Shown: one piece after another, positions 2,825 through 61,523 of the stretch | How the letters are laid out: each line of letters begins with the position of its first letter | How positions within the stretch are numbered: position 1 is the stretch's first letter | From: a bacterium | GTDB taxonomy: Bacteria > Auribacterota > Tritonobacteria > UBA1439 | Reading direction: 5' to 3' | Assembly (NCBI GenBank): GCA_028716845.1 | Contig: JAQUPF010000008.1 | Coordinates: 64,882-128,881, forward strand | DNA: 64,000 nucleotides | Position numbers and translations under genes: made by a program | The notes under the pieces: generated by a model | The model's database searches: none | Seen by the model: the letters and a program-made list of their open reading frames with translations, nothing else | Told to the model about the DNA's origin: nothing

Positions 2825-2850
2825 GCCGTGGGGCGCCCCGGATTACAGAG

Positions 2851-2945
2851 AACCGATCGACCGCGGATTGACACGGATCATTGCGGATCCACGGAGGGGG
2901 AGTTTTCTCGCCGCATATAGGCGCGGATGAACCGCGGATCCGAAC
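2851..2945. repeat. Interspersed ccgcggat repeat cluster
   Basis: This gap between convergent genes holds several copies of the ccgcggat / cacggatca / gcggatccacgg words found in all long gaps of the window. There is no ORF with coding character and no poly-T terminator. Confidence 0.7.
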
Positions 2946-2968
2946 AGCCTCCCCGCCTTTTTCCCCAT

Positions 2969-4621
2969 TCATTCCGCCGGGTCGATCGCGTACGGCGTCC
3001 GGAAATGAACCCGCAGGATGCGGACGCCGCCGGCCCGGTAGATCTCATCGAGGAACGGGGCCCCCTCCATCCGGAACGGCCCGCGCATCCGCTCGAAGGA
3101 TCCAAGGTAGATGTACCGGATGCCCTGCTCCCGGAGGAACCGCTCCCGTTCGTCGAGGCCGCCCGGGCCGAAGAGGACACGGTCGGCCGCGGCCGCCTTC
3201 TCGTTGAAGCGGAGCGTCTCGGACCAGTGGCCGACGTACACCCTGTTGCCGGTGTAGGCGGGGAGGTAGAGGCCGCTCCGGTGGGTGGAGAGGACCGGGG
3301 CGTCCTCGTTGTGGCGCTCCAGCATCCAGCGCATCGCCTCGACGTCCCCCTGCGGGAGATAGAACTCGAGCGGGTTCGCCCGCATCTCGCGCACGCAGAG
3401 GCGGAGCTTGACGATGGTGTCCGGCGCCGTCGCGAGGAGCAGGGCGGCGAGGAAGGCCGTCTCGAACCGCCGGCGCCCGGCGGCGCCGGTCCGCGGCGGG
3501 AGGAGCCTCACGGCCGCCGGCAGGAGGCGCCGGAAGACGGTCCGCGCCGCGAGGACGCAGAGCGGGACGTGGACGGCGGTCGAGAGGCGTCGCTGGAAGG
3601 AGACCGGGGCGTAGAGGAGGACCGCGACGGCGGCGACCCAGACGAGGAGGAGCCACTCGTCGCGCCCGCCCCGCCGCGCGATCCGGACCAGCTCGGGGAG
3701 GGCGAGGAAGAGGACGAGGCCGTAGCCGATGACGTAGCTCAGCGGGTGCGGGGAGAGGAACGCCTCCTTCGACCACTCGACGAAGACCGGCTCGGTCGTG
3801 AAGAGGTACGCCATGTAGAGGAACGACGGGAGCCCCGCCAGCCACATGACGGCGGCCGCCGCCGCGGCGCGCCGGGCGTCGGGGCGGAACCGCGCGGCGA
3901 CGACGGCCGCCCAGCCGGTCGTCACGACGGCGATCGTCACCCCGTCCACCGGGTGCACGAAGCCGAGGGCGAAGAGGGCGAGGCCGGCGGCGGCGGCGCG
4001 CCGCGCCGACCCGGCCCGGACCGCCCCGACGAGGAGGCCGAGGGAGAGGAGCATGAGGGCGGCGGTGAGGGCGAACTGGGGGAACGAGAAGATCGTCTCG
4101 AAGGTGATCGTCTCGGCGATCCAGTAGCTGATCGGCACCATGTTCCGCCGCTCGAAGAGCGCGCGCCACGCGTCGTACGGGATGAGCCAGCAGAGGCCGG
4201 AGGAAAAGGCGCAGAGGGCGAGGGTGAAGACGCGCTCCCGCGCCCCGTCGATGAAGAGGCGGATGAAGAAGGCGATGACCGCGAGCAGGAGGACCGCGTA
4301 CGCGGCGATGGCGGCGTGGTAGACGGCGAGCGGCGGGAGGCCGGTCGCCCGGCAGACCAGGCCGAGCGTCCAGGTGAACGGGTTGAAGAAGAGGGGGCGC
4401 TGCGCCTCGAGGGTGAAGTCGCGCCGGATGAAGAACTTCCCCTCCGACGCCTGCTGGATCCGGGAGAGGTAGCTGTTCTGGTCGTACGGGTGGTCGGCGA
4501 ACCCCATGAAGACCATCCCCGGCGGTGCGGCGCGGTATCCCCAGACGTACGGGATCGCGACGAGGACGATGACGGCCGCGACGATGAGCCGCGATGCGAC
4601 GGCGTGGGCGTCGATCCTCAT
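2969..4621 (-). CDS. Polytopic membrane protein, GT-C-glycosyltransferase-like
   Basis: The protein has 550 residues, with many hydrophobic segments from about residue 12 to 410 and a soluble C-terminal region of about 130 residues. An acidic loop early in the protein (GFADHPYDQNSYLSR) sits where GT-C enzymes carry catalytic Asp residues. The tail resembles those of membrane proteins that act on lipid-linked sugars. The ATG overlaps the stop of the upstream SGNH hydrolase gene (ATGA), so the two are translationally coupled. A role in envelope glycan assembly is inferred from this organisation and a second GT-C gene in the operon; the exact family is uncertain. Confidence 0.65.
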   Translation of the reverse strand: MRIDAHAVASRLIVAAVIVLVAIPYVWGYRAAPPGMVFMGFADHPYDQNSYLSRIQQASEGKFFIRRDFTLEAQRPLFFNPFTWTLGLVCRATGLPPLAVYHAAIAAYAVLLLAVIAFFIRLFIDGARERVFTLALCAFSSGLCWLIPYDAWRALFERRNMVPISYWIAETITFETIFSFPQFALTAALMLLSLGLLVGAVRAGSARRAAAAGLALFALGFVHPVDGVTIAVVTTGWAAVVAARFRPDARRAAAAAAVMWLAGLPSFLYMAYLFTTEPVFVEWSKEAFLSPHPLSYVIGYGLVLFLALPELVRIARRGGRDEWLLLVWVAAVAVLLYAPVSFQRRLSTAVHVPLCVLAARTVFRRLLPAAVRLLPPRTGAAGRRRFETAFLAALLLATAPDTIVKLRLCVREMRANPLEFYLPQGDVEAMRWMLERHNEDAPVLSTHRSGLYLPAYTGNRVYVGHWSETLRFNEKAAAADRVLFGPGGLDERERFLREQGIRYIYLGSFERMRGPFRMEGAPFLDEIYRAGGVRILRVHFRTPYAIDPAE

Positions 4622-5685
4622 CCGCCGCCCCCTTCCCCTTCCAGGAGCCGTTCCCGCTCGAGGGCGCCGATGATCGCCGCCGCGACGAGGCGGTGGCCGC
4701 GCGGCGTCCAGTGGCCGACCCTCCTGTGCGAGACCGGCCTGAGCCCCTCGGAGAGGGCCGCCGCCAGGTCGACGTGCGGGATGCCCTCCCGGCGGCAGAA
4801 GTCGCGGAGGAGGGGCGTGTAGTGCGACGGCAGGTCGGCGACGACGAGCCGCGCGCCGTTCTCCCGGCAGACCCGGTCGATCCGCCGCAGGATGGCCTTC
4901 GTGAGTTCCATCTCCTCCTCGAGGGCCCGCGGATCCGCCGGTTCCTCCTCCCGCCGCCGCCGTGACGGATGGGCCGCCCTGAAGGCGATCCAGTTGGCGA
5001 GATGGGATCGCCGCCAGAATCCGGGCCGGCCGGCGCGCGGGTCGCCGTACTCGGCCGCGAGCGCGGTCTTCGCCGCCCAGTAGGCGCGGTCGAACGGCAC
5101 CGGCGCGTTCCGCAGCTCGAGGCGGCCGTCCGCGAACTCGAAGAACGGCTTCGGCTGCCGGCCGTCGATCACCCGGGCGTTGTTCCCCTCGACGACGTCG
5201 TTCCGGTCGAAGAGGAGGAGGACGAGGTCCGGCCGGTATCGGAGGCCCTCGGTCTCGAGGACGAGGAGCTCCCGGTCGGTGGAGTATCCCGGGTGGGCGA
5301 GGTTGATGACCTCCCATCCGTCGAGCCGCCGCTCCATGACGTCCGAGAAGCGCTCCGCGGCCTCGACGCCCCATCCCCACGCCGTCGAATCGCCGAGGAC
5401 GACCATCCTGCGGCCGCCGCCCTTTCCGGGCGACCGCTCCCTGTCCCTGAACCCCTTCGAGTTGTTGACGATCCGATGGCTGAAGTCCGGCAGGACGAAG
5501 AGCCGGTCGAGGTTCGGAATCCCGGCGTAGCCGAGCAGCGGATGGTAGCGGTCGGGGAAGGATCGTATGGTCCCGGCGCTGTAATCGGGGAACGGGGCGA
5601 AAAGGCGGAGGGCCGCCTCCCCCGCGGCGGCGGCGAGGGCGACGCCGAGCGCGACGGCGCACGCCTTCCGTCCCCGCGGCGACAT
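4618..5685 (-). CDS. Membrane-anchored SGNH/GDSL-type hydrolase
   Basis: 355 residues. An N-terminal signal anchor (about residues 8-26) is followed by an SGNH fold: block I MVVLGDSTAWGWG with nucleophile Ser100, a conserved Asn in LFDRNDVVEGNN, and a C-terminal block with His (VGHWTPRGH). Members of this fold are esterases or O-acyl modifying enzymes of exported polysaccharides. It lies between two GT-C-like genes with start/stop overlaps on both sides (TGATG upstream, ATGA downstream). An extracytoplasmic step in glycan decoration is the likely role; the substrate is unknown. Confidence 0.75.
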   Translation of the reverse strand: MSPRGRKACAVALGVALAAAAGEAALRLFAPFPDYSAGTIRSFPDRYHPLLGYAGIPNLDRLFVLPDFSHRIVNNSKGFRDRERSPGKGGGRRMVVLGDSTAWGWGVEAAERFSDVMERRLDGWEVINLAHPGYSTDRELLVLETEGLRYRPDLVLLLFDRNDVVEGNNARVIDGRQPKPFFEFADGRLELRNAPVPFDRAYWAAKTALAAEYGDPRAGRPGFWRRSHLANWIAFRAAHPSRRRREEEPADPRALEEEMELTKAILRRIDRVCRENGARLVVADLPSHYTPLLRDFCRREGIPHVDLAAALSEGLRPVSHRRVGHWTPRGHRLVAAAIIGALERERLLEGEGGGG

Positions 5686-7271
5686 CAGGCGCCTCCCGGC
5701 AGCAGTTCGTAGATCGTCATCGCCCCGCCGTGGTACGACGCCGCCGGCCTGAAGACGAACTCCCGCTCGAGGGCCCGGCGCGGCGCGCCCCACCAGCGGT
5801 ACGTGAAGCCGTCCATGTAGACCTTCCGCCCGGCCGCCATGAGCTCCTCGAGGAAGGCGGGGTCCTCGGCCGCCGTCCTGACCGGGAGCGGCCTGTGGCG
5901 CACGTACTCCGCCTCGGCCGATACCGGGATGTAGAGGCGCCCGGTCTCCCCGACGAAATAGTGCGTGACGATCACGCCGTCGATGCCCGAGACGAGGCAG
6001 GCGTCGACGGGCGCCAGGCGGTCGAGGAGGCGCAGCCCCTCGTGCCAGCCGATCGACGCCTCCCCCTCCGCCCGCGCCCGCCGGAGCGGCTCGACGCACC
6101 CCCACGCCGTGACCGCGAGGATCGCCGCCGCCGGGATGCGCCAGAGGAGCGGCCGGACGCCGGCGCCCCTGCAGCGCCCGGCGAGCGCGGCCGCGCCGCG
6201 CGCGGCGAGGATGCAGGCGAACGGCACGACCGGCAGGAGGAACTTGGCCATCTGGAAGGAGTAGGTGAAGAGCGCGCAGACGACGGAGAGGATGAACGAG
6301 ACCGCCATTGCGGCGAAGGCGAAGGCGCCGTCCCTGTCATCCCCGAGGCAGGCGGCGGCGCCGAGGGCCGCGAGGACCAGGACGGACGGGAAATACGGGG
6401 CGAAGAGGGTCGGCCAGCTCAGGCCGAAGAGATGCCGGAGGTAGTAGCCGATGTTCCCCGCGACCGTTCCCCCCTCGGGGACGGCCGTGTTGGCGAACGC
6501 GTAGCGGAGGGAGAAGTTGGGCTTCCCCCTCCCCCGCAGCGCCCAGTACTCGTAGCCGTTCTCGAACATGGAGCCGAAGGCGGCATGGTTGTAGGCGAGG
6601 ACGGGGGTGAGGCCGGCGGCGAGGCCCGCGGCCGCGGGGACGAGGCGCGCGAGCGTCCCCCGCGGGTTTCCCCGGGCGGCGAGGCCCGCGGCGACGGCGA
6701 GGGGGACGACCGACATGCCGCTCAGCAGGTGGATCGATGCCGAGAGGCCGCAGCAGAGCCCGGCCGAGAGCCAGAGGAGCGGGCGGGCGCCGTCTCCCGA
6801 TGTCCCCCGCCAGGCGAGCCAGAGGCCGGCGACGAGGAAGGTGTTCGAGGCCATGTCGCTGATGAGGACGCGGCTGTAGCCGACCGAGGAGGGGGCGACG
6901 GCCAGGAGCAGCGCCGCGAGCGCCGCCGTCGCCGCGCCGAACACCCCGCGGGCGAACAGGTACGTCAGGAGGACGGCGGCGACGCCGAAGGCGCCGACGA
7001 CGCGGACGGCGTCGTGGAGCGGCGCGCCGGTCAGTCGGTAGAACGCCGCGAGGATCAGCGGGAAGCCCGGCGGGTACATGAGCGGGAGCCGGAGGTCGTT
7101 GATGTGGATCCAGAGCCCCCTGCCGTGGGCGAGGTTGTGCGCCGCCACGGCGTACTGGCCCGAGTCCGGGACGATGGCGAGGTCCGCGACGGCGGACGGC
7201 GGGACGGCGCGCAGCCAGGCCGCGAGGGAGAGGATTGCGGCGAGGATCGCGTATTCGGCGGCCCTCTTCAT
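5685..7271 (-). CDS. GT-C family glycosyltransferase (PMT_2/ArnT-like)
   Basis: 528 residues with about 11 hydrophobic segments. The first periplasmic loop has the acidic motif VPDSGQYAVAAHNLAHG, typical of PMT_2 (dolichyl/undecaprenyl-phosphate-sugar dependent) transferases, followed by LMYPPGFPLILA. A soluble domain forms the last 100 residues. The start was set at MKRAAEY because the in-frame extension upstream has no coding character. First gene of the three-gene operon with the SGNH hydrolase and second membrane protein. It probably moves a sugar from a lipid carrier to an acceptor outside the membrane. Confidence 0.8.
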   Translation of the reverse strand: MKRAAEYAILAAILSLAAWLRAVPPSAVADLAIVPDSGQYAVAAHNLAHGRGLWIHINDLRLPLMYPPGFPLILAAFYRLTGAPLHDAVRVVGAFGVAAVLLTYLFARGVFGAATAALAALLLAVAPSSVGYSRVLISDMASNTFLVAGLWLAWRGTSGDGARPLLWLSAGLCCGLSASIHLLSGMSVVPLAVAAGLAARGNPRGTLARLVPAAAGLAAGLTPVLAYNHAAFGSMFENGYEYWALRGRGKPNFSLRYAFANTAVPEGGTVAGNIGYYLRHLFGLSWPTLFAPYFPSVLVLAALGAAACLGDDRDGAFAFAAMAVSFILSVVCALFTYSFQMAKFLLPVVPFACILAARGAAALAGRCRGAGVRPLLWRIPAAAILAVTAWGCVEPLRRARAEGEASIGWHEGLRLLDRLAPVDACLVSGIDGVIVTHYFVGETGRLYIPVSAEAEYVRHRPLPVRTAAEDPAFLEELMAAGRKVYMDGFTYRWWGAPRRALEREFVFRPAASYHGGAMTIYELLPGGA

Positions 7272-7488
7272 ACCCGATGATTGTACGACAGGAATGTCGG
7301 GACGGGATACTGTTTCCGCCCCCGTGTATGTGGCAATATGGGGAGCCTGCATATTCGACTTCTCGAAGGTCCGCGGCGGGATTGAGCGGATCGCCGCCGC
7401 GCACGGCTATTCGTTCGACTACCGGATCGCGGGCGTCCGACGGGGGGCCGCCCGGCCGGGGTCGACCGGTCGGCGACGGGGGGTGGGA

Positions 7489-7707
7489 ATGCCGTTCATA
7501 CGGCTCCGCGGCATCACGGGGAGGGTGTACGTTCCGGAGCGCGCCCCCGCCGGCGCCCGGAAGCACCCCTGCAGGGACTGCTTTACCTGCCAGTGGTGCA
7601 GCGACGAGCGGTGCGCAGCCTGCCGGCCCGCACCGCGCGCGTCCGCGTGCCGCGAATTCAGACGCGGCGCGCGAGGAGCGCGCACAGCGCGGCGGCGGCG
7701 GCGATGA
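7489..7707 (+). CDS. Small Cys-rich protein with CxxC zinc-binding pattern
   Basis: 72 residues. The N-terminal part (MPFIRLRGITGRVYVPE) is followed by a Cys cluster around residues 28-46: CRDCFTCQWCSDERCAAC, with six Cys in paired spacing. From memory, short proteins of this pattern occur in Deltaproteobacteria and other anaerobes without known function; this was not checked. The ATG has a good ribosome site (GGGGGGTGGG). The C-terminal 15-20 residues are Arg-rich and overlap the convergent DUF3307 gene by 50 bp. A metal-binding or redox role is possible. Confidence 0.65.
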   Translation: MPFIRLRGITGRVYVPERAPAGARKHPCRDCFTCQWCSDERCAACRPAPRASACREFRRGARGARTARRRRR

Positions 7708-8392
7708 CGACGTTGCCCGCCGCGTCCGCCCTCGAGAGGAGCGTCCCCCTCGGCTCGAACCGCTTCGCCCGCCGGTTCGCCGCGGGGAGGCGGATCAGGA
7801 CGACCGCCGGCACGAAGAGCCACCAGAATCCTCCCGCGGCGACGAGCGCGAAGACGGCCGCCCGCTCCGCGATGCCGTACCACCGCTCGAGGCGGCCGCC
7901 CGGGAGCGCCTCCTCGGGGGTCGAGCGGAGGGTCCTCCGCGCGGCGTCCAGGAGGTAGCCGCCGCCGAAGACGGCGGCGGAGAAGAGGACGGCCGCGTCG
8001 ATCCATCCCGCCCCGTCGAGGCGCCCGAGCGCGCCGCCATCGAGGAGCGCCGGCGCGGCGAGCCCCGTCGCGAACACGGCGGCGGCCGCGCCGACGTGCA
8101 ACCCCTGGTCGAGGAGGAACGTCCAGAGGTTGCCGGGACCGGCGAGCCGGTCGAGGACCCTGACCTTCAGGATGTCGGCCGCCATGTGGCACGCCGCGAG
8201 CGCGGCGATGAACGCCCAGTAGGACGGCATTCGGAGGAGCGGCCAGCCGGCGGCGGCGGCGGCGGCGAGGCATATGCCGGCGTGGAGGAGCTGCCCGCGG
8301 ACGGAGCGGAGCTTCATGCGGTGGACGGCGTCCGTCTGGAGCGGAAAATCGGCGACGAAGTGCGCGAGGAGCAACAGCTTGAACAGGAGCAT
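7658..8392 (-). CDS. DUF3307 membrane protein
   Basis: 244 residues and about six hydrophobic segments. The N-terminal motif LLLAHFVADFPLQTD (His, Asp and Gln on one helix) followed by HxD-like residues in ACHMAADILK is the hallmark of DUF3307, a membrane family of unknown function often near phage-like or toxin-like loci. It lies 29 bp downstream of the FecR-type gene on the same strand and may be cotranscribed. No strong Shine-Dalgarno is visible. Confidence 0.75.
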   Translation of the reverse strand: MLLFKLLLLAHFVADFPLQTDAVHRMKLRSVRGQLLHAGICLAAAAAAGWPLLRMPSYWAFIAALAACHMAADILKVRVLDRLAGPGNLWTFLLDQGLHVGAAAAVFATGLAAPALLDGGALGRLDGAGWIDAAVLFSAAVFGGGYLLDAARRTLRSTPEEALPGGRLERWYGIAERAAVFALVAAGGFWWLFVPAVVLIRLPAANRRAKRFEPRGTLLSRADAAGNVVIAAAAALCALLARRV

Positions 8393-8421
8393 CGGACGCG
8401 GGTCCCCGACGGCCGCGAGGG

Positions 8422-9858
8422 TCAGATGTCGCCGAGGGCGAGGAGCCGGATGAACTCCTCCGGCGTTACCGCCGCCGGTGACGCCATGTAGTGCGCGCCG
8501 AGGAGTTCACCCGCCGCCGGCGGGACGGCCCCCCGCACGGCGTCGCCCCGGACCCTGAGGACGACCTCGACGGAGCCGTCCGAGTAGTGGGTCTTCGACA
8601 CCTCCTCGGCCCCCTGGACGACGCCCTTGACCGCGACCGTGATCCGGTCGTCCTCGACGGCGAGGTCCCTGAGCGTCGTCGAGGAGTCGACCACGGTGCC
8701 GTGGATCTTCTCGGCGAGCCGCCGGTAGGCGTCCACCGTCGCCGCGCGCTCCGCCGCCACCCGTATGAAGCCGCCGAAGGCGGCGGCGTAGTCGGCGAGC
8801 GTGACCGGCGTGATCTCGGTCCAGGCGAGGGCGATGTCCCTGCCGGTGATCTTCCGCACCTCGTCGAGCGGGAGCTCGAGCCGGACGAGCGCCCGCCGCT
8901 CATCCTTCCCGTACTCCGCCTTCACGGGGCGGAGGCCGGCCGCCGCCGCGAGGAGCGCCCGGCAGACGGCCGGGTCACCGTCCATCACATCGCCGACGGT
9001 CTCCTCGCCCGAGAGGCGGACCGCCCGGAGGGTCTCGAGGAGCAGCCGCCTCGCCTCCCGCCCGGCCGCCTCCGTGGCGGCGGCCGCGCCTTCCCCCTCC
9101 TGCGCCGACGCCTCCGCGGCGGCGCCGATGACGAGGTTCTCGAGGCTCGGCTTCGGATCCTTGAGGCGCTCGAGCATCCGCCGCGCGTCCGCCAGCGGCA
9201 CGGTCGGATCCTCGAGCCGCCTGAGGAGAATCGTCTTCGGCGGCAGGCCCGTCCCCTTCGCCTCGATGAGCGCGGTCCCCCACGGGGCGACGAGGGTGCC
9301 CCGGTCAGGGCCGAGCGCCACGAACTTCCGGGGCTCGCCCGTCGCCTGCACGCGGACGGCGCCGGCCGAGACGGCGACCGCCGTCGCCGAGCCGTCGGGC
9401 CCGACGCCCATGAGGAACGAGGTGCCGCGCACCGCGGCGACCGCCGCGGGGGTCCGCAGGCTCAGGCGCGCGTCGGCGGGGAGCGCATCGAGCTTCGCGA
9501 CGATCCGCCCCTTCAGGAGGCCGAGCTCGGTGAGCCGCACGACCGCACCCGACGCCTCGCGCTCCTCGTCGGCGAGCCTGTCGATGCGGACGAGCGCGTT
9601 CTCCATGACCCGGAACCGGTTTCGCGGGTCGAGCTCCAGGTCGGCGTAGGAGTTGCTCGCCGTCCTGATCGAATCGCTGCGGGCCACCGTCATGCCGGCG
9701 GCCGCCGGCGCCCATGTATCGACGGGAGGCCTGAGGCGCTCGGCGACGCGGTGCACCCTCGCGATCGTCGCCTCCCGGCCGGGCGTCGCCCCCCCGGCGG
9801 CCCCGGCGAGGAGGAGGGCGGCGGTGCAGACGGCGGCGCGATGGCGGGCATTCTTCAC
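8422..9858 (-). CDS. Exported FecR-domain protein with C-terminal LPP20/FlgT-like domain
   Basis: The GTG start is chosen for the ribosome site GGGGAGGG 6 bp upstream; an ATG further out lies in repeat DNA. 478 residues: signal peptide (about 1-25), FecR-like barrel around 100-210 (RVMENALVRID, TPAAVAAVRGTSFLMGV), a helical middle region, and a C-terminal domain with TVDAYRRLAEKIHGTVVDS followed by a beta-rich segment, as in LPP20/FlgT-like proteins. FecR domains of this sort occur in exported scaffold or sensor proteins. Divergent from the CHASE2-cyclase operon, across a repeat-filled gap. Confidence 0.75.
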   Translation of the reverse strand: MKNARHRAAVCTAALLLAGAAGGATPGREATIARVHRVAERLRPPVDTWAPAAAGMTVARSDSIRTASNSYADLELDPRNRFRVMENALVRIDRLADEEREASGAVVRLTELGLLKGRIVAKLDALPADARLSLRTPAAVAAVRGTSFLMGVGPDGSATAVAVSAGAVRVQATGEPRKFVALGPDRGTLVAPWGTALIEAKGTGLPPKTILLRRLEDPTVPLADARRMLERLKDPKPSLENLVIGAAAEASAQEGEGAAAATEAAGREARRLLLETLRAVRLSGEETVGDVMDGDPAVCRALLAAAAGLRPVKAEYGKDERRALVRLELPLDEVRKITGRDIALAWTEITPVTLADYAAAFGGFIRVAAERAATVDAYRRLAEKIHGTVVDSSTTLRDLAVEDDRITVAVKGVVQGAEEVSKTHYSDGSVEVVLRVRGDAVRGAVPPAAGELLGAHYMASPAAVTPEEFIRLLALGDI

Positions 9859-9965
9859 GATTCCCTCCCCGGACGGCCCACGATACCACAGCGCCCGAGA
9901 GGTCGTCCAGCCGGAACGGGGGCAACCACAGCCCAACGTGAACAGCCCGAAGCGGAGGAAAGAAG

Positions 9966-10024
9966 AACACATCCGTCGATGATCCGCGGAGATCCGCGGC
10001 TGGGAGTTCATCGAGCGGCGGCGA
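9966..10024. repeat. Interspersed repeat module before CHASE2 promoter
   Basis: Words gatccgcggagatccgcggctgg and gttcatcgagcggcgg are related to sequences at 14041-14080 and 31701-31745. It ends directly at the -35 box of the following gene. Confidence 0.65.
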
Positions 10025-10053: not shown

Positions 10054-10069
10054 CGCCGCGGTGTGCACG

Positions 10070-13806: not shown

Positions 13807-13841
13807 GGCCGTCCCGCCTCACGGCATGCAGTGCATGAGGC

Positions 13842-14105
13842 GCCAATCCACCACGGATGCAACTACAGTCCAAGGTTGAAAGTTCAAGGTCGAAAGTATC
13901 AAGGTTTTGCCGCAGATTGCCGCGGATAGTTCCTTTCGCCGCAGAGATCGCAGAGACCACAGAGAATCCGGAGGGTTCAACTCTTTCAATCAGCGTTCAT
14001 CCGCGGCGGCATTGTCATAGTCTCCGTGATAATCCGTCATGATCCGCGAAGATCCGCGGCTGGCGGTTCATCGTGCGGCGTGAAGATCCGCGGCTGTTTG
14101 TTCCT
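13842..14105. repeat. Interspersed repeat mosaic
   Basis: The gap holds ccaatccaccacggat, a degenerate minus-oriented acagag unit (tacagtccaaggttgaaag ... ccgcagagatcgcagagacc), and several ccgcggat words in both orientations. The right end is read as the last codons of the methyltransferase gene. No gene is seen inside. Confidence 0.8.
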
Positions 14106-28570: not shown

Positions 28571-28755
28571 GCCGCGGATGGACGCGGGCATTCTGGTGCC
28601 GCAGATGATCGCGGATTCGAGCGGATCGTATGGAGTCACAGAGGGCACAGAGAACACGGAGGATAGTGCTGCTTTCGACTTTGAACTTTCAACTTTAAAC
28701 TGTAGTTGTTCTCCGTGGCGAAAAGAGAGAGCTGCTATTCACTTCAATCCGCGGC
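28571..28755 (+). repeat. Full acagag-core repeat unit with inverted ends (plus orientation)
   Basis: 185 bp unit from gccgcggatg to caatccgcggc. The core has acagagggcacagagaacac, cggagga, and a run of tttgaactttcaactttaaac. Its ends form an imperfect inverted repeat. The unit at 34053-34237 is its reverse complement with about 177/185 identity by hand alignment. Confidence 0.9.
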
Positions 28756-28787
28756 ACGAAGATTCAAATCAAACATCCGCGGCTACA

Positions 28788-28833
28788 GCATCGATACGGC
28801 TCATCATAATCGCATTCAATCAGTGGAGATCCG
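28788..28833 (+). repeat. Short repeat shared with 48110-48155
   Basis: The words tacggctcatcat and gcattcaatcagtggagat, near-identical at 48110-48155, lie in a row with ccgcggat words before the glycosyltransferase gene. Confidence 0.65.
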
Positions 28834-28859
28834 CGGCGCGGAGCGCATGGGGGCACGGG

Positions 28860-30028: not shown

Positions 30029-30112
30029 CTGATTAGGGATCAACAGTTCGTCGTTCGTATCCCGCATTTCGCATCTCGCACGATCCGCGGATCCGCACGG
30101 AACACGGTTTCT

Positions 30113-30242
30113 GCCGCGGATGAACGCGGATTCTGGCGGATCGTATGGAGCCACCGAGGGCACAGAGAACACGGAGGATATCGCTGCTTTCGACTTTGAA
30201 CTTTCAACTTTAAACTGTAGTTGTTCTCCGTGATCTCCGCGG
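30113..30242 (+). repeat. acagag-core repeat unit, shortened right end
   Basis: Same orientation as 28571-28755 but missing part of the right end; runs from gccgcggatg through cgagggcacagagaacac to tctccgcggc. It sits between the GT2 gene and the HicB-like gene. The rest of the 350 bp gap has other ccgcggat words and no gene. Confidence 0.85.
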
Positions 30243-31569: not shown

Positions 31570-31605
31570 GAATCCTCGGGCAATGATCCGTGAGGATCCG
31601 TGGCT

Positions 31606-31700
31606 CGTGGTTCGTGATTCGCCTGTCCGCAGCGGCTCATGCGATGTGCGAGGGGCGAGCAACGACCGACGCGCTGCCGGACAATCCGTGAAGATCCGCG
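31606..31700 (+). repeat. 95 bp repeat module, copy 1 (copy 2 at 48182-48276)
   Basis: The two copies differ at one base in 95 by eye (cgcagcgg here, cgccgcgg there) and lie 16.6 kb apart in the same orientation. A more diverged copy is at 55108-55155. Confidence 0.92.
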
Positions 31701-31738
31701 CGGATCCGTGGCAGGGAGTACATTATTCATGTATAATG
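31701..31738 (+). promoter_or_regulatory. Promoter-bearing repeat module upstream of the M50 gene
   Basis: Reads cggatccgtggcagggagta then cattattcatgtataatg. TATAAT is at 31732-31737. The same module, inverted, serves the GT2 gene (29990-30028). The -35 is weak. Confidence 0.5.
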
Positions 31739-33956: not shown

Positions 33957-34052
33957 GCCGCCCCGTTGGTGGGTACCCATTGTTCAGCCGCGGATCTTCG
34001 CGGATCTTCGCGGATTCAACGGCAGCCGAAAGCGCACGGGAACAGTGCCTCT

Positions 34053-34237
34053 GCCGCGGATTGAAGTGAATAGCAGATAGTTCTTTCCGCCACGGAGAAC
34101 AACTACAGTTTAAAGTTGAAAGTTCAAAGTCGAAAGCAGCACTATCCTCCGTGTTCTCTGTGCCCTCTGTGGCTCCATACGATCCGCTCGAATCCGCGTT
34201 CATCCGCGGCACCAGAATGCCCGCGTCCATCCGCGGC
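34053..34237 (-). repeat. Full acagag-core repeat unit, inverted copy of 28571-28755
   Basis: 185 bp; the minus strand gives the same sequence as 28571-28755 with about eight differences, most in one short stretch near the tail. The two units face each other and enclose about 5.3 kb. More ccgcggat words lie at 33983-34016. Confidence 0.92.
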
Positions 34238-41821: not shown

Positions 41822-41879
41822 GCCCCCGAAAAATATTTTTCGCGGCGACAATGATCTCCGCGCCGCGGATCCCTGCGGA

Positions 41880-42110
41880 TGCGATTACAGTGAAAAGTCG
41901 AAAGTTCAACATCTATGGGGGAACGGGGTTTCTGCCGCGGATTTGCACGGATTATCGCGGATGCAAATGCAGCTTTGAACTGTGGTCCGATCCGCGTTGA
42001 TCCGCGGCTGGAACCCTGTATCTGCCGCAATCCAATCCGTGAATATCCGTCATGATCCGTTTCAATCCGTGGCTCTTGGTTCATCGTGTCCGCGGCTCGT
42101 GGTTCATGAC
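41880..42110. repeat. Interspersed repeat mosaic
   Basis: The 430 bp gap before the AGCS gene holds a remnant of the acagag unit (attacagtgaaaagtcg at 41888), ccgcggat words, and a second module (gaaccctgtatctgccgcaat, 42011-42068) near-identical to 55027-55086 and inverted at 61218-61258. No gene is seen. Confidence 0.85.
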
Positions 42111-43544: not shown

Positions 43545-43723
43545 CCAATCCACCACGGATCGCCACGGATTGTCCATCGCCGTTCGTCCTGCGTCCAACG
43601 CATGAGCCGCGGCGAACCCGCGCACCATGAACCACGAGCCGCGGATTCACGCGGATCGTATGGAGCCACAGAGGGCACAGAGAACACGGAGGATATTGCT
43701 GCGTTCGACTTTGAACCGTAGTT
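43545..43723. repeat. Interspersed repeat mosaic with truncated acagag unit
   Basis: ccaatccaccacggat words (43548) lead into the right-handed acagag unit at 43638-43723, which breaks off after ttgaaccgtag. No gene is seen in this 336 bp gap. Confidence 0.8.
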
Positions 43724-47939: not shown

Positions 47940-48276
47940 ACCACGCACCACGGATCCGCACGGATAAAACTACAGTCAAAAGTCGAAAGTTCAAAGTCGA
48001 AAGCAGCAATATCCTCCGTGTTCTCTGTGCCCTCGGTGGCTCCATACGATCCGCGTGAATCCGCGTTCATCCGCGGCAAAAAGACGTACATCAGGAATCT
48101 GCGGCCATTGCATCTCTACGGCTCATCATGGCCGCATTCAATCAGTGGAGATCCGTCAATGATCCGTGAACATCCGCGGCCCGTGGTTCGTGATTCGCCT
48201 GTCCGCCGCGGCTCATGCGATGTGCGAGGGGCGAGCAACGACCGACGCGCTGCCGGACAATCCGTGAAGATCCGCG
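47940..48276. repeat. Interspersed repeat mosaic
   Basis: Contains an inverted acagag unit (47963-48077), the short module matching 28788-28833 (48110-48155), and copy 2 of the 95 bp module (48182-48276; copy 1 at 31606-31700). Other words here are accacgcaccacggat at 47939. No gene is seen in this 500 bp gap. Confidence 0.9.
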
Positions 48277-48352
48277 GTCGATTGGCGCGTTGTGGGCGGC
48301 GGTGTGGCCGCAGGCCGGCGCATGTGCTACCATGCCGGAAATCGGTCGCCGC

Positions 48353-53083: not shown

Positions 53084-53086
53084 ACG

Positions 53087-54799: not shown

Positions 54800-54815
54800 G
54801 TCTCCCTCTCGATCC

Positions 54816-54845
54816 ATTATATCACTCGAAACCCCCGATTTGTCA
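54816..54845 (-). promoter_or_regulatory. Predicted promoter of the PolX gene
   Basis: On the minus strand TGACAA (54845-54840), 18 bp spacer, TATAAT (54821-54816). Confidence 0.5.
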
Positions 54846-54882
54846 TCCGCATCGCGCTCGATCCGCCGCATATCAAAGACCC

Positions 54883-55190
54883 AATCCACCACGGATGTTC
54901 ACAGATCATTACGGATCAGCACGGATCCGGATGCAGCCCTGGTCCAGCCGTAAGCTGTACGCCATAAGCTGTATTGCTGACGGCTGCCGCGGAGAGCCGC
55001 AGGCGATAACGTTCTTGCCGCGGCAGGAACCCTGTATCTGCTGCAATCCAAGCCGTGGAGATCCGTCATGATCCGTTTCAATCCGGGGCCTTTAGCGCAT
55101 TATTCCGCCGCGGCTCGTGCGATGTACGAAGGACGAACGACGACCGACGAACTTCGTTTGCAGGATCCGCGGCGATCCGCGGTCGATTGA
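54883..55190. repeat. Interspersed repeat mosaic
   Basis: Holds ccaatccaccacggat (54883), a stretch with taagctgtacgccataagctg (54949), the gaaccctgtatctgctgcaat module (55027-55086), and a diverged copy of the 95 bp module with acgaaggacgaacgacgac (55108-55155). Not coding; no RNA gene seen. Confidence 0.85.
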
Positions 55191-55221
55191 GGCCTCATGC
55201 ATGCCTGCCTCCTTTCGGCGC

Positions 55222-55250
55222 TTGCCGCCGCCGTCCGCCTGTGCCATAAT
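55222..55250 (+). promoter_or_regulatory. Predicted promoter of the class II aldolase gene
   Basis: TTGCCG (55222-55227), 17 bp spacer, CATAAT (55245-55250). Start codon 29 bp downstream with GGAAGGAGG. Confidence 0.6.
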
Positions 55251-55264
55251 GACGAAGCACGTGA

Positions 55265-56206
<942 letters not shown>

Positions 56207-56259
56207 CTTCGCGGCCGGCGGGCCGCCGGCCGGGAGCCGTTCGTGAGAAGGAGACATCA

Positions 56260-56658
56260 ATGACCCAGACAATCGCGCTGCTCGTCCCGTTCGCCCTCGC
56301 CGTGTCCGCCATGCTCCTCGCGGTCGCGGTTCTCCTCCACGTCCGCCAGACGCGCCGACGCCTCGACGGGATCGACGTCGAGGGCCTCGCGCGACGCCTC
56401 TCCGCCGTCGAGGAGCGGACGGCCGAGGCCGAACGGGCCGTCGAGGCCTGCCGGAAGGGCGGCGCCGAGATGCAGATGCGCGCGAAGGCGATCGAGAACG
56501 ACGTGGCCGAGGTCAGGACCGAGAGCGCGCGATTCCTCGGCATCTTCAAGACCGTCCTCTACGGATTCGACTACATCGTGCAGGGCTGCAAGAGCGCCCT
56601 CGAGATCAGCGCCCCGGAGACGCCCCCGGCCGAGAAGCGGATCACCGGCGAGGAATGA
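56260..56658 (+). CDS. Small membrane-anchored coiled-coil protein
   Basis: 132 residues: one N-terminal transmembrane segment (about 5-27, LLVPFALAVSAMLLAVAV) followed by a coiled coil (about 30-90, RRLSAVEERTAEAERAVEA) and a C-terminal tail. No family recognised. 53 bp after the aldolase gene with AGAAGGAG upstream; possibly an operon with the CNNM genes after it. Confidence 0.6.
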   Translation: MTQTIALLVPFALAVSAMLLAVAVLLHVRQTRRRLDGIDVEGLARRLSAVEERTAEAERAVEACRKGGAEMQMRAKAIENDVAEVRTESARFLGIFKTVLYGFDYIVQGCKSALEISAPETPPAEKRITGEE

Positions 56659-56694
56659 CGCCCGGGTGCGCCGCCGGAGGGGTGTGAGCACCGT

Positions 56695-57945
56695 TTGAAC
56701 AGGTACGTCCTCTATCACGCCGTCGGCATCGCCGCGCTCCTCTGCGTCTCGTTCTTCTTCTCCTGCACCGAAACGACCCTCTTCTCCCTCTCCGATTACC
56801 AGGTCAAGAAGCTCCAGCGGCGGCGGGACAGGCGGGGGGCCCTCGTCGCGCGCCTCCTCTCGAATCCGCGGCGCCTCCTCATCTCCATCCTCATCGGAAA
56901 CATGTTCGTCAACATCTTCGCCTCCGTCCTCGGCGACTCCCTCACGCGGCGCGTCATCCCCGGGGCGGAGGGGACGCTCGTCGCCATCATCCTCATGACC
57001 TTCGCCGTCCTCATCATGGGGGAGATCACGCCGAAGACCATCGCGATCCAGTGGAACGAGCGCCTCGCGCCCCTCGTCGCCCCCCTCATCAACGCCATCG
57101 GCGTCGCCCTCTTCCCCGTCCGCCGCGTGGTCCGCGCCGTCTCGGACGCCGTCATCTCGGCCTTCACCGGCCCGGTCGTCCCCGCCGAGCCGGCGATCAC
57201 CGAGGAGGAGATCAAGACCGCCATCCGCCTCGGCTCCCGGGAGGGCGTCGTGGACCCCGAGGAGCGCCAGATGATCCAGGGGGTCTTCAACTTCGCCGAC
57301 CGGCGGGTGGCCGCCCTCATGCGCCCCCGCCCGGAGGTGCTCGCCTTCGAGGCGGGCATGCCGATCGACCGCATCGAGCGGACCATCAGGGAGCGCCAGT
57401 ACTCCCGCATCCCCGTGTACGAGGGGTCGTTCGACAACGTCATCGGCATCCTCCACGTCAAGGACCTCATGCGGGGGGCGCCCGCGGAGGGGGGCCTCAG
57501 GGCGCTCCTCAAGCCCGCCTATTTCGTCCCCGAGTCGATGAAGGCCTCCTCCCTCCTCCGCGAGTTCCGGCGCCGCCGGATGCACATCGCCGTCGTCGCG
57601 GACGAGTACGGGAGCGTCTCGGGCATCGTGACCCTTGACGACCTCCTCGAGGAGGTCGTCGGCGAGGTGCGCGACAAGGGCGCCGGAACGCCGCTGTTCC
57701 GGCAGGTCGACCTCCACACCTTCCGGGTGAGCGCGCGGATGGGGCTCGACGCGTTCAACGAGCTCTTCGGGACGCAGCTCGCCGATCCACGCAACGCGAC
57801 GATCGGCGGCTGCCTCGTTCGGCTGCTCGGGCGCATACCCGAGGTCGGCCGCCAGATCCGGCACGGCGGCCTCCTCTTCACCGTCGCCGCCGCGACGGGC
57901 AGCAGGGTCGACGAGCTCGTGGTGAGCCGGGAGGCGCGGCGATGA
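56695..57945 (+). CDS. CNNM/CBS-domain membrane protein (HlyC/CorC family) 1
   Basis: 416 residues from a TTG start; GGAGGGG lies 13 bp upstream. Four hydrophobic segments (about 1-150, with SCTETTLFSLSDYQV and PKTIAIQWN) form a CNNM domain, followed by a CBS pair (about 210-330) with RIPVYEGSFDNVIGILHVKDL, cited in parts, and a CorC/HlyC C-terminal domain. Linked to magnesium or cobalt homeostasis. Overlaps the next, similar gene by 4 bp. Confidence 0.9.
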   Translation: MNRYVLYHAVGIAALLCVSFFFSCTETTLFSLSDYQVKKLQRRRDRRGALVARLLSNPRRLLISILIGNMFVNIFASVLGDSLTRRVIPGAEGTLVAIILMTFAVLIMGEITPKTIAIQWNERLAPLVAPLINAIGVALFPVRRVVRAVSDAVISAFTGPVVPAEPAITEEEIKTAIRLGSREGVVDPEERQMIQGVFNFADRRVAALMRPRPEVLAFEAGMPIDRIERTIRERQYSRIPVYEGSFDNVIGILHVKDLMRGAPAEGGLRALLKPAYFVPESMKASSLLREFRRRRMHIAVVADEYGSVSGIVTLDDLLEEVVGEVRDKGAGTPLFRQVDLHTFRVSARMGLDAFNELFGTQLADPRNATIGGCLVRLLGRIPEVGRQIRHGGLLFTVAAATGSRVDELVVSREARR

Positions 57946-59174
57946 TCGCCCTCGCCGTCGCCTTCATTCTCGCCTGCCTCTTCCTCCAGGCCTTCTTCGC
58001 CGGCTCGGAGATGGCGGTGATCTCCTGCAGCCGGATCAGGGTCCGGCACAAGGCGGAGCTCGGCCACCGGCGCGCGCGGATCATCCAGGGCTTCCTCGAG
58101 GAGCCGCGGAGCCTGCTCGCCACGACCCTCGTCGGCTACAACGTCGCGGTGGTGGCCGGCTCCTGCGTCCTCAACAACCTCCTTTCGGTCTACGCCCCCG
58201 CGGGCACCGAGAACCTCTTCTCGCTCCTCCTCTACTACCCGCTCGTCCTCATCGGCGGGCAGATCGTGCCGATGGCCGTCGGCCGGCAGCGCGCGAACAC
58301 CCTCTGCCTCGCCTGCGCCCGCTGGCTCCGGGTCGCGTACCGGGCGCTCTTCCCGCTCGTCTTCAGCGCATCGAGGCTCGGCGACGCCATCAGCCGCCTC
58401 CTCACGAGGGGGAAGTCGCTGAAGAACCCCTTCGTCACGCGGGAGGAGCTCGAGCTCATGCTCAAGGAGAGCCACACGGCCGGCGTTCTCGACCGCGAGG
58501 AGAAGGAGATGATCGAGGAGATCTTCCACTTCGGCGAGACGACCGTGCGCGAGGCGATGGTGCCGCTCATCAACGTCGTCGCCGCGCCGGACACGGCGAC
58601 CGCCGGCGAGGTGCGGGCCCTCATCGCCTCGAGCCGCCACTCCCGCATCCCCGTCTACGCCGGCAGGATCGACAACGTCATCGGCACGGTCCGCGCGACC
58701 GACCTCGCCGGCCTCCCCGCCGACCGGGGGATCGGGGAACTCCTGCGATCCCCCTACCTCGTCCCCGAATCCGCCTCACTCGAGACGGTGCTCGCCGGGT
58801 TCAGGCGCAGGGGGAGGAACATCGCCATCGCCGTCGACGAGTACGGCGGCGTGTCGGGCATCATCACGCTCATGGACATCGCCGAGGAGATCATGGGCGA
58901 GATCGAGGACATCGCGGAGGAGGCGCCCCGGACGGCGGCCGAGACGATCATCCTCGAGGGGTCAATGCGCATCGAGGCGTTCAACGAGGAGTTCGGGCAG
59001 CGCCTCCCCCGCGAGGCGGCCGAGACGATCGGCGGCTTCGTCACCGGCCTGGTCGGCGCGATCCCGCAGCAGGGCGCCGAGGTCTCCTACGAGAACCTCC
59101 GTTTTCGCGTCCTCGAGGCGACGGACCGGCGGGTGACGAAGGTGGAGGTCGCGGGCGCCCGCCACGGCGGGTGA
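57942..59174 (+). CDS. CNNM/CBS-domain membrane protein (HlyC/CorC family) 2
   Basis: 410 residues, paralogous to its neighbour: CNNM domain (about 1-150, FAGSEMAVISCSRIRV, GGQIVPMAVG), CBS pair with RIPVYAGRIDNVIGTVRATDL, cited in parts, and CorC-type C-terminus. The ATG overlaps the previous stop. A pair of adjacent CNNM proteins could form a heterodimer. Confidence 0.9.
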   Translation: MIALAVAFILACLFLQAFFAGSEMAVISCSRIRVRHKAELGHRRARIIQGFLEEPRSLLATTLVGYNVAVVAGSCVLNNLLSVYAPAGTENLFSLLLYYPLVLIGGQIVPMAVGRQRANTLCLACARWLRVAYRALFPLVFSASRLGDAISRLLTRGKSLKNPFVTREELELMLKESHTAGVLDREEKEMIEEIFHFGETTVREAMVPLINVVAAPDTATAGEVRALIASSRHSRIPVYAGRIDNVIGTVRATDLAGLPADRGIGELLRSPYLVPESASLETVLAGFRRRGRNIAIAVDEYGGVSGIITLMDIAEEIMGEIEDIAEEAPRTAAETIILEGSMRIEAFNEEFGQRLPREAAETIGGFVTGLVGAIPQQGAEVSYENLRFRVLEATDRRVTKVEVAGARHGG

Positions 59175-59202
59175 CGCGGCGGACTGAGAAAGGACGGTGC
59201 GA

Positions 59203-59559
59203 ATGGGCGCGGACGACGCGCGGGTGCGTATGGACAACCTCTATCGCGAGGAGCAGTTCACCGACCTCGGCATGGCCTCGGTGCGGATGCTGTCGCCCGT
59301 CAGGCCCGACGGGTCTCCCGAGGAAACCCGGCCCGCGGTGTTCATCGGGCAGGCGCACGTCCTCTCCTCCGCGGGGCCGCTCCCGGTCCAGTTCCCGATC
59401 GAGGCGGCGAGCCTCCGCGAGGCGCTGGAGCGGTTCCCCGTGGCGATGAAGGCGGGCGTCGAGCGGATGATCGCGGAGGCGAAGGAGATCCAGCGCCAGG
59501 AGGCGTCTCGACTCATCGTGCCGGGCGAGGGGACCGGCGGCATTATCAAACCGGCCTGA
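59203..59559 (+). CDS. Conserved small protein of unknown function
   Basis: 118 residues; ATG chosen because GAAAGGA lies 8 bp upstream (a GTG at 59197 is too close). Residues 8-20 (VRMDNLYREEQFT) and 40-70 (AVFIGQAHVLSSAG) look folded, and a helix (SLREALERFPVAMKAGVERMI) ends the core. No family recognised. 28 bp after the CNNM pair. Confidence 0.65.
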   Translation: MGADDARVRMDNLYREEQFTDLGMASVRMLSPVRPDGSPEETRPAVFIGQAHVLSSAGPLPVQFPIEAASLREALERFPVAMKAGVERMIAEAKEIQRQEASRLIVPGEGTGGIIKPA

Positions 59560-59573
59560 GCCGGACGCGGCGG

Positions 59574-59602
59574 TTGCATTCCGCCGGCGAATGCGGTATA
59601 GA
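59574..59602 (+). promoter_or_regulatory. Predicted promoter of the small membrane protein gene
   Basis: TTGCAT (59574-59579), 17 bp spacer, TATAGA (59597-59602). Confidence 0.55.
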
Positions 59603-59630
59603 GGGGGGCGTCGAGCGTACGGGAGGGCCC

Positions 59631-59819
59631 ATGGAAATCATCGTCAAGCTTTTCATCGGGTTCGCCATCTTCTTCACGGGCGTCGTCCTGAACGTGAGGA
59701 TCATGCGGCGCACCGGCGGCAAGGCGGAGGGGTTCATGCCGATGCTGTCGTTCATCATCATCTGCGCCGGCCTCGTCGCCCTCGTCGTGATGGCGAGCAC
59801 CATCCAGGTGTCGCTCTAG
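59631..59819 (+). CDS. Small membrane protein
   Basis: 62 residues with two hydrophobic segments (about 3-22 and 38-58), a basic loop between (RIMRRTGGKAEG) and a short tail. No family recognised. Has its own promoter and GGGAGGGCCC. Confidence 0.6.
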   Translation: MEIIVKLFIGFAIFFTGVVLNVRIMRRTGGKAEGFMPMLSFIIICAGLVALVVMASTIQVSL

Positions 59820-59842
59820 CCGCCGGCCCGCGCCCGGCCCCC

Positions 59843-61126
59843 TCAGAGCGCCCGGATCCGCTCCACCCGCGCCTGGAGCTCCCGGTCGTACGCCGCCCAG
59901 TCGGTGATCGGCCTCGTCGCCACCCCGCTCTCCATCGCCGCCCGGGCGACCCTGGGCGCGAGCCGGAGAAGCACCCGCGGGTCGAACGGCTTCGGGATGA
60001 TGTAGTGGGGGCCGAAGGAGTACTCCGCGCCGCCGTAGGCCCGCCGCACCTCGTCGATGACCTCCTCCTTCGCGAGCGCCGCGAGCCCCTCGGTGGCGGC
60101 GTGCTTCATCGCCTCGTTGATGTGCGTGGCGCGCACGTCGAGCGCCCCTCGGAAGATGAACGGGAAGCCGAGGACGTTGTTCACCTGGTTCGGGTAGTCG
60201 GACCTGCCGGTCGCCACGATGGCGTCCGGCCGGGCCTCCGTGGCGGCCTCGTAGGTGATCTCCGGGTCGGGGTTCGCCATGGCGAAGACGACGGGCTGCC
60301 GGTTCATGGTGCGGAGCATCTCCCCGCTGACGAGGTCCTTGTAGGAGAGGCCGATGAAGACATCGGCCCCCCTGATGGCCTCCGCGAGGGTGCGGCACTT
60401 CGTCTTCGCGGCGAACGCCGCCATGTACGGGTTCATCCCCTTCGTCCGACCCTCGTAGATGACGCCCCCGATGTCGGAGAGGATGAGGTTCTCCTTCCGG
60501 ACGCCGAGGCTCAGCCAGTACTTCGCGCAGGCGAGGCCCGCCGCGCCCGCGCCGCTGAACACCACCCTGACGTCGCCGATGCGCTTCCCCGCAATCTCGA
60601 GGGCGTTGAGGAGGGCGGCGCCCGAGATGATCGCGGTCCCGTGCTGGTCGTCGTGGAAGACGGGGATCCGCATGTCGCGCTCGAGCGTCTCCTCGATCGG
60701 GAAGCACTCCGGCGCCTTGATGTCCTCCAGGTTGATGCCGCCGAACGTCGGCTCGAGGAGCTTCACCGTCCGGATGATCTCGTCCGGGTCCTCGCTCGCG
60801 ATCTCGAGGTCGAACGCGTCCACGTCCGCGAACCGCTTGAAGAGGACCGCCTTCCCCTCCATCACCGGCTTGCTCGCGAGCGCGCCGATGTTGCCGAGGC
60901 CGAGGACCGCGGTGCCGTTGGAGACGACCGCGATGAGGTTGCCGCGCGCCGTGTAGTCGTAGACGTCATCGGGCGACGCGGCGATCGCAAGGCTCGGCTT
61001 CGCCACGCCCGGCGTGTAGGCGAGGGAGAGGTCCTTCTGCGTCCGGCACGGCTTCGTCGGGATGACCTCGATCTTGCCGCGCCTTCCCGTCCGGTGGTAC
61101 TCGAGCGCCTCTTTCTCGGTGAACAT
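59843..61126 (-). CDS. NAD(P)-dependent malic enzyme
   Basis: 427 residues of the short bacterial form. [13 protein letters not shown], the metal-binding DDQHGTAI with VFHDDQ, the dinucleotide motif [14 protein letters not shown], and [12 protein letters not shown]. Converts malate to pyruvate and CO2. GGAGGGGGG precedes the ATG. No PTA domain is fused. Confidence 0.95.
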
Positions 61127-61160
61127 GGCCCCCCTCCTGTTGCGGCCGCCGTCGCACCGC

Positions 61161-61189
61161 ATTCTAGCACCGGCGCCGGCCCGCGCAAA
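61161..61189 (-). promoter_or_regulatory. Predicted promoter of the malic enzyme gene
   Basis: On the minus strand TTTGCG (61189-61184), 17 bp spacer, TAGAAT (61166-61161). Confidence 0.45.
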
Positions 61190-61202
61190 CCTTTTCATAT
61201 GC

Positions 61203-61432
61203 ACCACCAGCCACGGATCTTCACGGATTGGATTGCAGCAGATACAGGGTTCCTGCCGCGGATGAACGCGGATCCAAACGGTGAACCGCGGATCCACGCG
61301 GATCGTATGGAGCCACAGAGGGCACAGAGAACACGGAGGATATTGCTGCGTTCGACTTTGAACTTTCAACTTTAAACTGTGGTTGTTCTCCGTGACGAAA
61401 GGAGAGAGCTGCTATTCACGTTCATCCGCGGC
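61203..61432 (+). repeat. Interspersed repeat mosaic with near-full acagag unit
   Basis: An inverted module ttggattgcagcagatac (61227) runs into the acagag unit (61255-61432, from gccgcggatgaac to ttcatccgcggc). The unit's ends form an inverted repeat. More ccgcggat words follow to 61500. No gene is seen in this 409 bp gap. Confidence 0.88.
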
Positions 61433-61523
61433 GGAAGCGCTGTTCCCCCACGCTTCCGGCTGCAGTCGCATCCGCGATAATCCGCGTCAATCCGCGGCGA
61501 AATTTCCACCGTCACCGTTTTGG

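Follow-up and report, generated by a model that had tools for sequence, protein, structure and literature searches.

We analysed a stretch of 64,000 nucleotides, hereafter the window, from a bacterium of the phylum Auribacterota (GenBank assembly GCA_028716845.1, contig JAQUPF010000008.1, positions 64,882 to 128,881), in which arrays of short words, nested and mirrored, occupy a dozen gaps between genes. Most of these repeats are non-autonomous elements built of word arrays, and they fall into two classes. The gene-bearing form of the first class (class 1) encodes a GxxExxY protein, and that of the second a four-helix-bundle protein (TIGR02436/S23p). As a whole explanation, we consider it likely that the modules in the window are mostly gene-less derivatives of these two very small element classes, and that the spread of class 1 is driven by its nuclease. 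The initial annotation of the window had proposed non-autonomous elements or REP-type (repetitive extragenic palindromic) repeats with shared building blocks. This was right in outline; what it took for one family is, however, two gene-bearing classes nested together, and it missed the intact or decayed gene-bearing copies present in the same genome (L001, L002 and L163, described below).

Three types of word are found in the gaps: a GAT class (CGCGGAT or CACGGAT, with a period of 10), an AG class (CACAGAG, CACGGAG, period 9) and 7-nt (heptad) arrays, exemplified by GTTTAAAGTTGAAAGTTCAAAGTCGAAAG. The filling of the gaps by such modules, as initially reported, is real. Indeed, CCGCGGAT is present in 39 copies in the window for 14.8 expected and CACGGAT in 19 copies for 10.3 expected, numbers that no shuffle reaches, and the arrays recur from one gap to another. 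The acagag-core unit that had been singled out holds as an array, and not as a bare word: ACAGAG is not enriched in the window (13 copies for 15.5 expected) and is meaningful solely within arrays such as CACAGAGGGCACAGAGAACACGGAG, which are recurrent in the gaps. GAACCCTGTATCTG and CCAATCCACCACGGAT have three copies each. Gaps and coding regions were called with a home-made gene caller; 26 of the 40 word chains lie inside called gaps, which represent 19% of the window, and the chains called coding are by eye mostly located at gap edges where a gene start was badly called. The words are directed inward, with plus-strand words on the left and minus-strand words on the right in mirrored order. 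In the best copies (e.g. 28573-28835), the GAT words are outermost, the AG words lie inside them and the 7-nt core is central. A search of the window against Rfam matched no family, and no transposase was present among the ten window proteins tested, as the initial annotation had stated for the whole stretch.

The modules extend beyond the window, since word pairs and the composite recur genome-wide. In pattern searches, with the reversed pattern as a control, CGCGGATN{2,4}CGCGGAT gave 240 matches against 0 and CACAGAGN{1,3}CACAGAG gave 85 against 1, with balanced strands in both cases. A 158-bp composite matched at 48 or more places in the genome (2.68 Mb), most closely on the window's own contig, and six composite copies were near-identical when aligned over about 100 bp. 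Composite copies are clustered on contigs C8, C4 and C1, and copies on the same contig are the most alike, which suggests local spread or conversion. The initial annotation's remark that similar strings occur in unrelated genomes was correct.

A search of the window's genome (G000) for PF13366 gave two places. L001 is an intact GxxExxY gene between inverted CACGGAT arrays (CCACGGATcaACACGGATtcTTGCGGAT and the inverted counterpart GATCCGTGTCAATCCGTGG), which scores 131 bits on the GxxExxY profile (TIGR04256, cut-off 35) and 138 on PDDEXK_3 (PF13366, cut-off 22). L002 is an internally deleted GxxExxY gene, its second half being lost, between the inverted CACAGAG arrays GCCACAGAGATCACAGAGAACACAGAG and CTCCGTGTTCTCTGTGATCTCTGTGGC; its scores on the same profiles (67 and 65 bits) are still above the curated cut-offs. 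Since the GAT and AG words seen in the window also flank L001 and L002, respectively, gene-bearing and deleted versions coexist with gene-less arrays. The genes found between arrays belong to PF13366 or to TIGR02436. Moreover, gene-less word pairs are more frequent in genomes that have a nuclease with the same word, the median being 18 with and 2 without for CACAGAG pairs (p 0.008), and 7.5 with and 0 without for CGCAAAG pairs (p 0.005). Internal deletions or frame breaks are frequent among GxxExxY genes (G010:C203:28851-29081, G079:C277, G054:C136), which thereby form a series from the intact gene to bare arrays. Some genomes (G048, G065, G056) hold 113 to 260 CACAGAG pairs; in G048, many of the listed pairs make up compact hairpins about 50-70 bp long, smaller than any other gene-less form seen.

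PF13366 matches were found in 25 of the 44 genomes of the phylum, with flanks that carry matched inverted arrays of many different words, and a scan of 84,980 species provided 80 further GxxExxY loci from 19 phyla (one archaeal). The outer end on both sides is TTNACC, next to which each arm consists of 3-4 direct repeats of a word of the form CRCNRAK at a fixed spacing of 8-11 nt; the arms enclose a single GxxExxY gene (about 120 aa, with a 117-residue domain), the second array being the same as the first in inverted orientation. The median size is 463 bp (422 to 651 bp from the 5th to the 95th percentile). When the left flank was aligned with the reverse complement of the right flank, 82 of 103 loci were above the 99th percentile of displaced flanks. 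A word test requiring at least five matched words was positive at 86 of 108 loci against 4 of 185 displaced pairs (2%). Displaced flanks are the proper control for this test, because AG words shared between loci inflate mismatched pairs (134/323). A strict test on chains of exact 6-mers missed many true arrays (34/78) and was replaced by these tolerant tests. With the set enlarged by 130 loci, the word test was positive at 183 of 236 loci (about 77%) and the alignment test at 181 of 236, with a period of 8-11 nt nearly throughout.

The two ends of an element are matched to each other. Where left and right ends both have at least three words, they share their consensus word at 89% of loci; shuffled ends do so in 21%, and none of 2000 shuffles exceeded 40%. 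The first two spacings coincide at 92% of these loci, against 26% after shuffling. At the variable word positions, the arms agree in 90% of cells compared with 57% between elements, whereas for spacer bases the values are 55% and 44%. Strong matching of the words together with weak matching of the spacers fits selection by a word-reading protein and not simple copying of whole arms, which we rejected as the main cause of matched ends. Words of the same rank are also barely more alike than words of different rank (83% versus 80%), again against whole-arm copying.

Residues and words were compared in 112 distinct GxxExxY proteins whose words are clear. Domain residue 2, where helix 1 begins, varies together with word base 5: threonine at this position was paired with G in 61 of 61 cases; where base 5 is A, 29 proteins have Ser, Ala, Gly or Val, 5 have a gap and none has Thr. 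Among disjoint pairs of close relatives differing at base 5, Thr was found only in the G partner in 26 pairs and the reverse in none, with 8 ties (sign test, p 3e-8); such relative-matched pairs include proteins that are 89% and 77% identical. Column 2 ranks first of the 116 columns (p 1.8e-5 against identity-matched pairs). The rule is not due to the overlap of coding and array DNA, because it is kept by the right arm alone when the left array is at least 25 nt away (37 Thr-G, 0 Thr-A). Nor is it due to base composition, because it is kept inside 11 single genomes holding both kinds of word, where Thr was found with 0 of 20 A-words and 13 of 16 G-words. As the covariation holds both in relative-matched pairs and within single genomes, the GxxExxY nuclease very probably reads, by binding them, the words of its own element, as far as can be judged from sequences. 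At a coarser level, a single change on the protein tree separates words ending in AG from those ending in GAT, where shuffled labels require 11.

GxxExxY is a minimal PD-(D/E)XK domain. The catalytic residues E23, D62, E72-x-K74 and Q86 are invariant or nearly so across all phyla, and the AlphaFold model (predicted local distance difference test, pLDDT, 96; predicted template modelling score, pTM, 0.87) has Cas4 SSO0001 as its nearest solved structure (Foldseek probability 0.99, E 4e-3; Z 9.3 over 96 residues). Less clear structural matches were lambda exonuclease, AddAB, Hjc and EcoRV, and a sequence search for a GxxExxY relative with a solved structure found none. From the modelled fold and these residues, we infer that the protein cuts DNA.

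The second class accounts for the heptads. TIGR02436 genes are present in 26 of 43 genomes of the phylum, with two matches in the window's genome, and inverted arms were found at 50 of 64 four-helix-bundle loci, against 0.2% of mismatched pairs. The best period among these 50 loci is 7 or 14 in 36 of them and 8 in 10. In the window's genome, L163 carries GTTCAAAGTTGAAAGTTCAAAG, which is the core module of the window; the gttgaaag core is thus explained by a class that carries matching 7-nt arrays. The intervening sequence (IVS) of the Coxiella 23S rRNA encodes S23p and has terminal inverted repeats, with tandem heptamers GACAGAT upstream of the gene; intervening sequences of this kind are excised by RNase III (PMC4990558). 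As the protein family and the heptamers are shared, along with terminal inverted repeats, the four-helix-bundle class appears as a known kind of element in a new setting. The elements described here differ in that they appear to lie between protein genes, in many genomes, with heptads at both ends and many gene-less copies. Their flanks, examined by eye only, look like protein or tRNA genes, not rRNA. This class carries the long unexplained rRNA intervening sequences over to intergenic elements with the same heptamer arrays; for the nuclease class, no counterpart was found in the 23S rRNA IVS literature consulted (PMC4990558). By eye, four-helix-bundle elements adjoin tRNA genes in several genomes (L157, L163, L166), and at L163 a 7-nt array stands on both sides of a tRNA-like gene.

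Comparison of orthologous sites revealed turnover. Downstream of rtcB, a GxxExxY element is present in three genera of the family (G000, G020, G022), with CACGGAT, CGCGGAT or mixed words; in a fourth genus there is a remnant array only (G023) or nothing (G024), and the site is rearranged in G021. Arrays of GAT words and of CACAGAG are found in G000 downstream of the sodium:alanine symporter of the window, and the orthologous gap of G022 has arrays of CACGGAG, the word of a G022 nuclease (L006). In another family, a GxxExxY element with GCGGATC words was seen in two genera (L023 and L024), apparently at the same site beside a conserved gene; the two proteins form a long separate branch.

The anatomy, the matched ends, the recognition covariation, the copy number, the gene-less derivatives and the site turnover can all be read in the sequences; the nuclease is most likely the mobility enzyme, acting by transposition or homing. 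According to the scenario that we propose for class 1, the nuclease would very probably bind the words of its own element, as suggested by the covariation of residue 2 with base 5, and would then probably cut at or beside the arrays. Through repair or joining, a copy of the element could then reach a new position between genes or an array already in place (homing). A copy that has lost its gene would retain both arrays and remain a substrate in trans; such copies would accumulate and nest in one another, giving rise to the combinations seen in the window.

Several observations weigh against this proposal. Target-site duplications were not found, the longest direct repeat in the 25 nt outside the elements having a mean of 4.36 for own flanks and 4.32 for shuffled ones (n=53), nor did any cleanly empty site, with its target bare, come to light. 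Gene copies within a genome are mostly divergent, and recent transposition of the nuclease gene itself was not seen. Clear arrays were not seen at about a fifth of GxxExxY loci, and arrays are present in many genomes with no detected same-word nuclease, most of these genomes being incomplete assemblies. Concerning recognition, Ser2 is found with both A and G words, so that the rule is one-way only and Thr appears sufficient for G, not necessary. No convincing single-residue determinant was found for word bases 2 and 4, and the exact words carry little phylogenetic signal. Finally, the protein tree is short and poorly resolved, and its well-supported branches offer only 5 independent pairs, which does not suffice for a phylogenetic test.

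How do other explanations fare with these data? A restricted version of our proposal, in which elements only enter existing arrays, a gene-less array being cut and repaired from a gene-bearing one with no transposition to new sites, is possible, although we think it doubtful. It would account for the lack of target-site duplication, for the occupation of the same site in three genera, and for exact words that change independently of the gene tree, as if genes swapped arrays; however, the high copy numbers and the nesting of arrays that differ in word imply that new sites are reached. We consider it unlikely that an unrelated transposase, or slippage during replication, spreads the arrays, GxxExxY being merely resident and perhaps regulating itself by binding them. 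The same tiny gene lies between matched arrays in 19 phyla, the word class follows the protein clade and residue 2 tracks base 5 even inside one genome, all of which speak against a passenger role, whereas the missing target-site duplications, the many arrays with no gene and the quite different protein of the second array class would suit it. We also know of no transposition chemistry for a lone PD-(D/E)XK nuclease, which counts in favour of this alternative.

The arrays could instead be useful to the host, as sites of genome maintenance or transcript ending on which GxxExxY would act as a host enzyme, with nothing selfish involved. Their mostly intergenic location in both orientations, and a fold resembling repair nucleases (Cas4, AddAB) and Holliday-junction resolvases, are compatible with such a role. 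Selfish DNA is nevertheless a better fit to the patchy distribution in the phylum, the several unrelated words per genome, the decayed and truncated copies and the turnover at orthologous gaps, and we hold a host function to be improbable. We judge equally improbable a system acting at the RNA level, whereby inverted arrays would form transcript stems, as in the 23S rRNA IVS, and the proteins would bind or process them. The four-helix-bundle class does match the S23p intervening sequences, with inverted repeats, heptamers and RNase III excision (PMC4990558). Yet the folding of the modules, suggested initially as a check, gave no support: the fold of the best composite is not significantly more stable than those of shuffled sequences (z -1.6), and the RNA hairpin was rejected as the main constraint. 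Moreover, spacers match far less than words, as expected for DNA words read by a protein and not for a stem, and the nuclease fold is of a DNA-cutting type.

The closest known systems include REP sequences and REPINs with their RAYT partners (PMC3116915, PMC8049555, PMC3686654), which share short mirrored intergenic repeats in high copy number, one linked low-copy gene, gene-less copies presumably served in trans and a repeat type that varies with the gene lineage. RAYT is, however, an HUH tyrosine transposase (PMC3116915, PMC8049555, PMC3686654), in contrast to the PD-(D/E)XK nuclease found here. The arms do not form the single imperfect palindrome or hairpin pair of a REPIN; they are made of 3-4 directly repeated spaced words, the two arms bound a gene-bearing element some 460 bp long, and a residue covaries with a base. 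Miniature inverted-repeat transposable elements (MITEs) derived from DDE transposons are likewise small gene-less inverted-repeat elements that arise from gene-bearing ones by internal deletion, and terminal inverted repeats were found at 82 of 103 GxxExxY loci and 50 of 64 four-helix-bundle loci. The present elements differ by the lack of a detected target-site duplication, by ends made of word arrays, and in that no DDE transposase was identified as a partner. The protein being a lone PD-(D/E)XK nuclease, we also see no standard insertion-sequence ends with a known transposase, which the initial annotation had named as a finding that would overturn it. Cas4, AddAB, lambda exonuclease, EcoRV and Hjc share the fold and the catalytic E, D, ExK and Q motif, but GxxExxY is a minimal single domain tied to its own flanking word arrays, and no mobile or homing role of this kind was found in the literature consulted on these enzymes. 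Homing endonuclease elements in rRNA genes of the candidate phyla radiation (CPR; PMC11270868) are also small, with a single nuclease gene, conserved sites and gene-less versions at the same sites; they encode LAGLIDADG or GIY-YIG enzymes and lie in rRNA genes, unlike the multi-copy intergenic sites with repeated short words described here.

Many environmental genomes are strewn with repeats like ACCACAGAGACACAGAG; we found no published account of their origin, nor any published description of nuclease-linked arrays in the open-licence PubMed Central literature. The GxxExxY family is large and annotated but has no function stated for it, and its name comes up, in passing, in only two papers of that literature. 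The link between the two gives the protein a testable job and the repeats an origin, and it points to a small nuclease whose word specificity is apparently set in part by one residue. We lean, with some reserve, towards a more general view in which GxxExxY proteins are very widespread, hitherto unrecognised minimal selfish nucleases that read repeated DNA words by a simple residue-to-base rule (Thr2 for G at base 5, and no Thr with A). Together with their gene-less derivatives, they would account for a notable share of the repeats between genes in many bacterial phyla and in at least one archaeon, their words diversifying fast while the ends stay matched.

Table. Word arrays and composites located in the window (window coordinates).
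Feature	Position	Strand	Components
GAT-class word array, decayed, gene-less	2862..2939	+	CGCGGAT, CACGGAT
Nested arrays	13841..14092	.	GAT words (+); AG array CGCAGAGATCGCAGAGACCACAGAG 13940-13964 (+); 7-nt core ~13864-13906; GAT (-) 13999, 14042-14058, 14086
Composite, best-preserved	28573..28835	.	GAT (+) 28573-28616; AG array (+) 28637-28661; heptad core 28678-28705; AG word (-) 28711; GAT (-) 28747, 28775, 28829
Composite	30056..30241	.	heptad array 30056-30083; GAT array 30115-30131; AG array 30152-30176; heptad core 30193-30220; AG array (-) 30226-30241
GAT arrays flanking heptad arrays	31586..31710	-	GAT 31586-31602, 31684-31710; heptad 31600-31627, 31640-31667
Composite	33989..34235	-	GAT arrays at ends 33989-34015 (+), 34192-34208 (-); AG array (-) 34147-34171; heptad core 34109-34136
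GAT hairpin	41864..42071	.	array (+) 41936-41962; array (-) 41990-42006; (-) words 42035, 42065; GAACCCTGTATCTG at 42011; orthologous gaps compared
GAT + AG arrays	43554..43691	+	GAT 43554-43570, 43640-43656; AG 43667-43691; CACGGAG arrays instead in another genus' orthologous gap
Mixed arrays	47949..48287	.	GAT (+) 47949-47965; heptad core 47976-48003; AG array (-) 48014-48038; GAT arrays (-) 48049-48075, 48162-48178, 48260-48276; heptad array 48216-48243
GAT + heptad arrays	54890..55181	.	GAT words (+) 54890-54926; heptad 54946-54973, 55126-55153; GAT array (-) 55165-55181; GAACCCTGTATCTG at 55027
Composite	61212..61496	.	GAT arrays (+) 61212-61228, 61257-61303; AG array (+) 61314-61338; heptad core 61351-61378; AG word (-) 61388; GAT array (-) 61470-61496

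The heptad array at 31640 recurs at 48216, and the feature to which it belongs is probably the 95 bp module of the initial annotation. No GxxExxY relative was found in phage records, and E. coli gave no match to the DNA of L001. GxxExxY copies are rare on plasmid records (8 records; L370-L373), and one locus was seen on a viral contig (L172, from IMG/VR), where it is flanked by arrays of the CACGAAG type.

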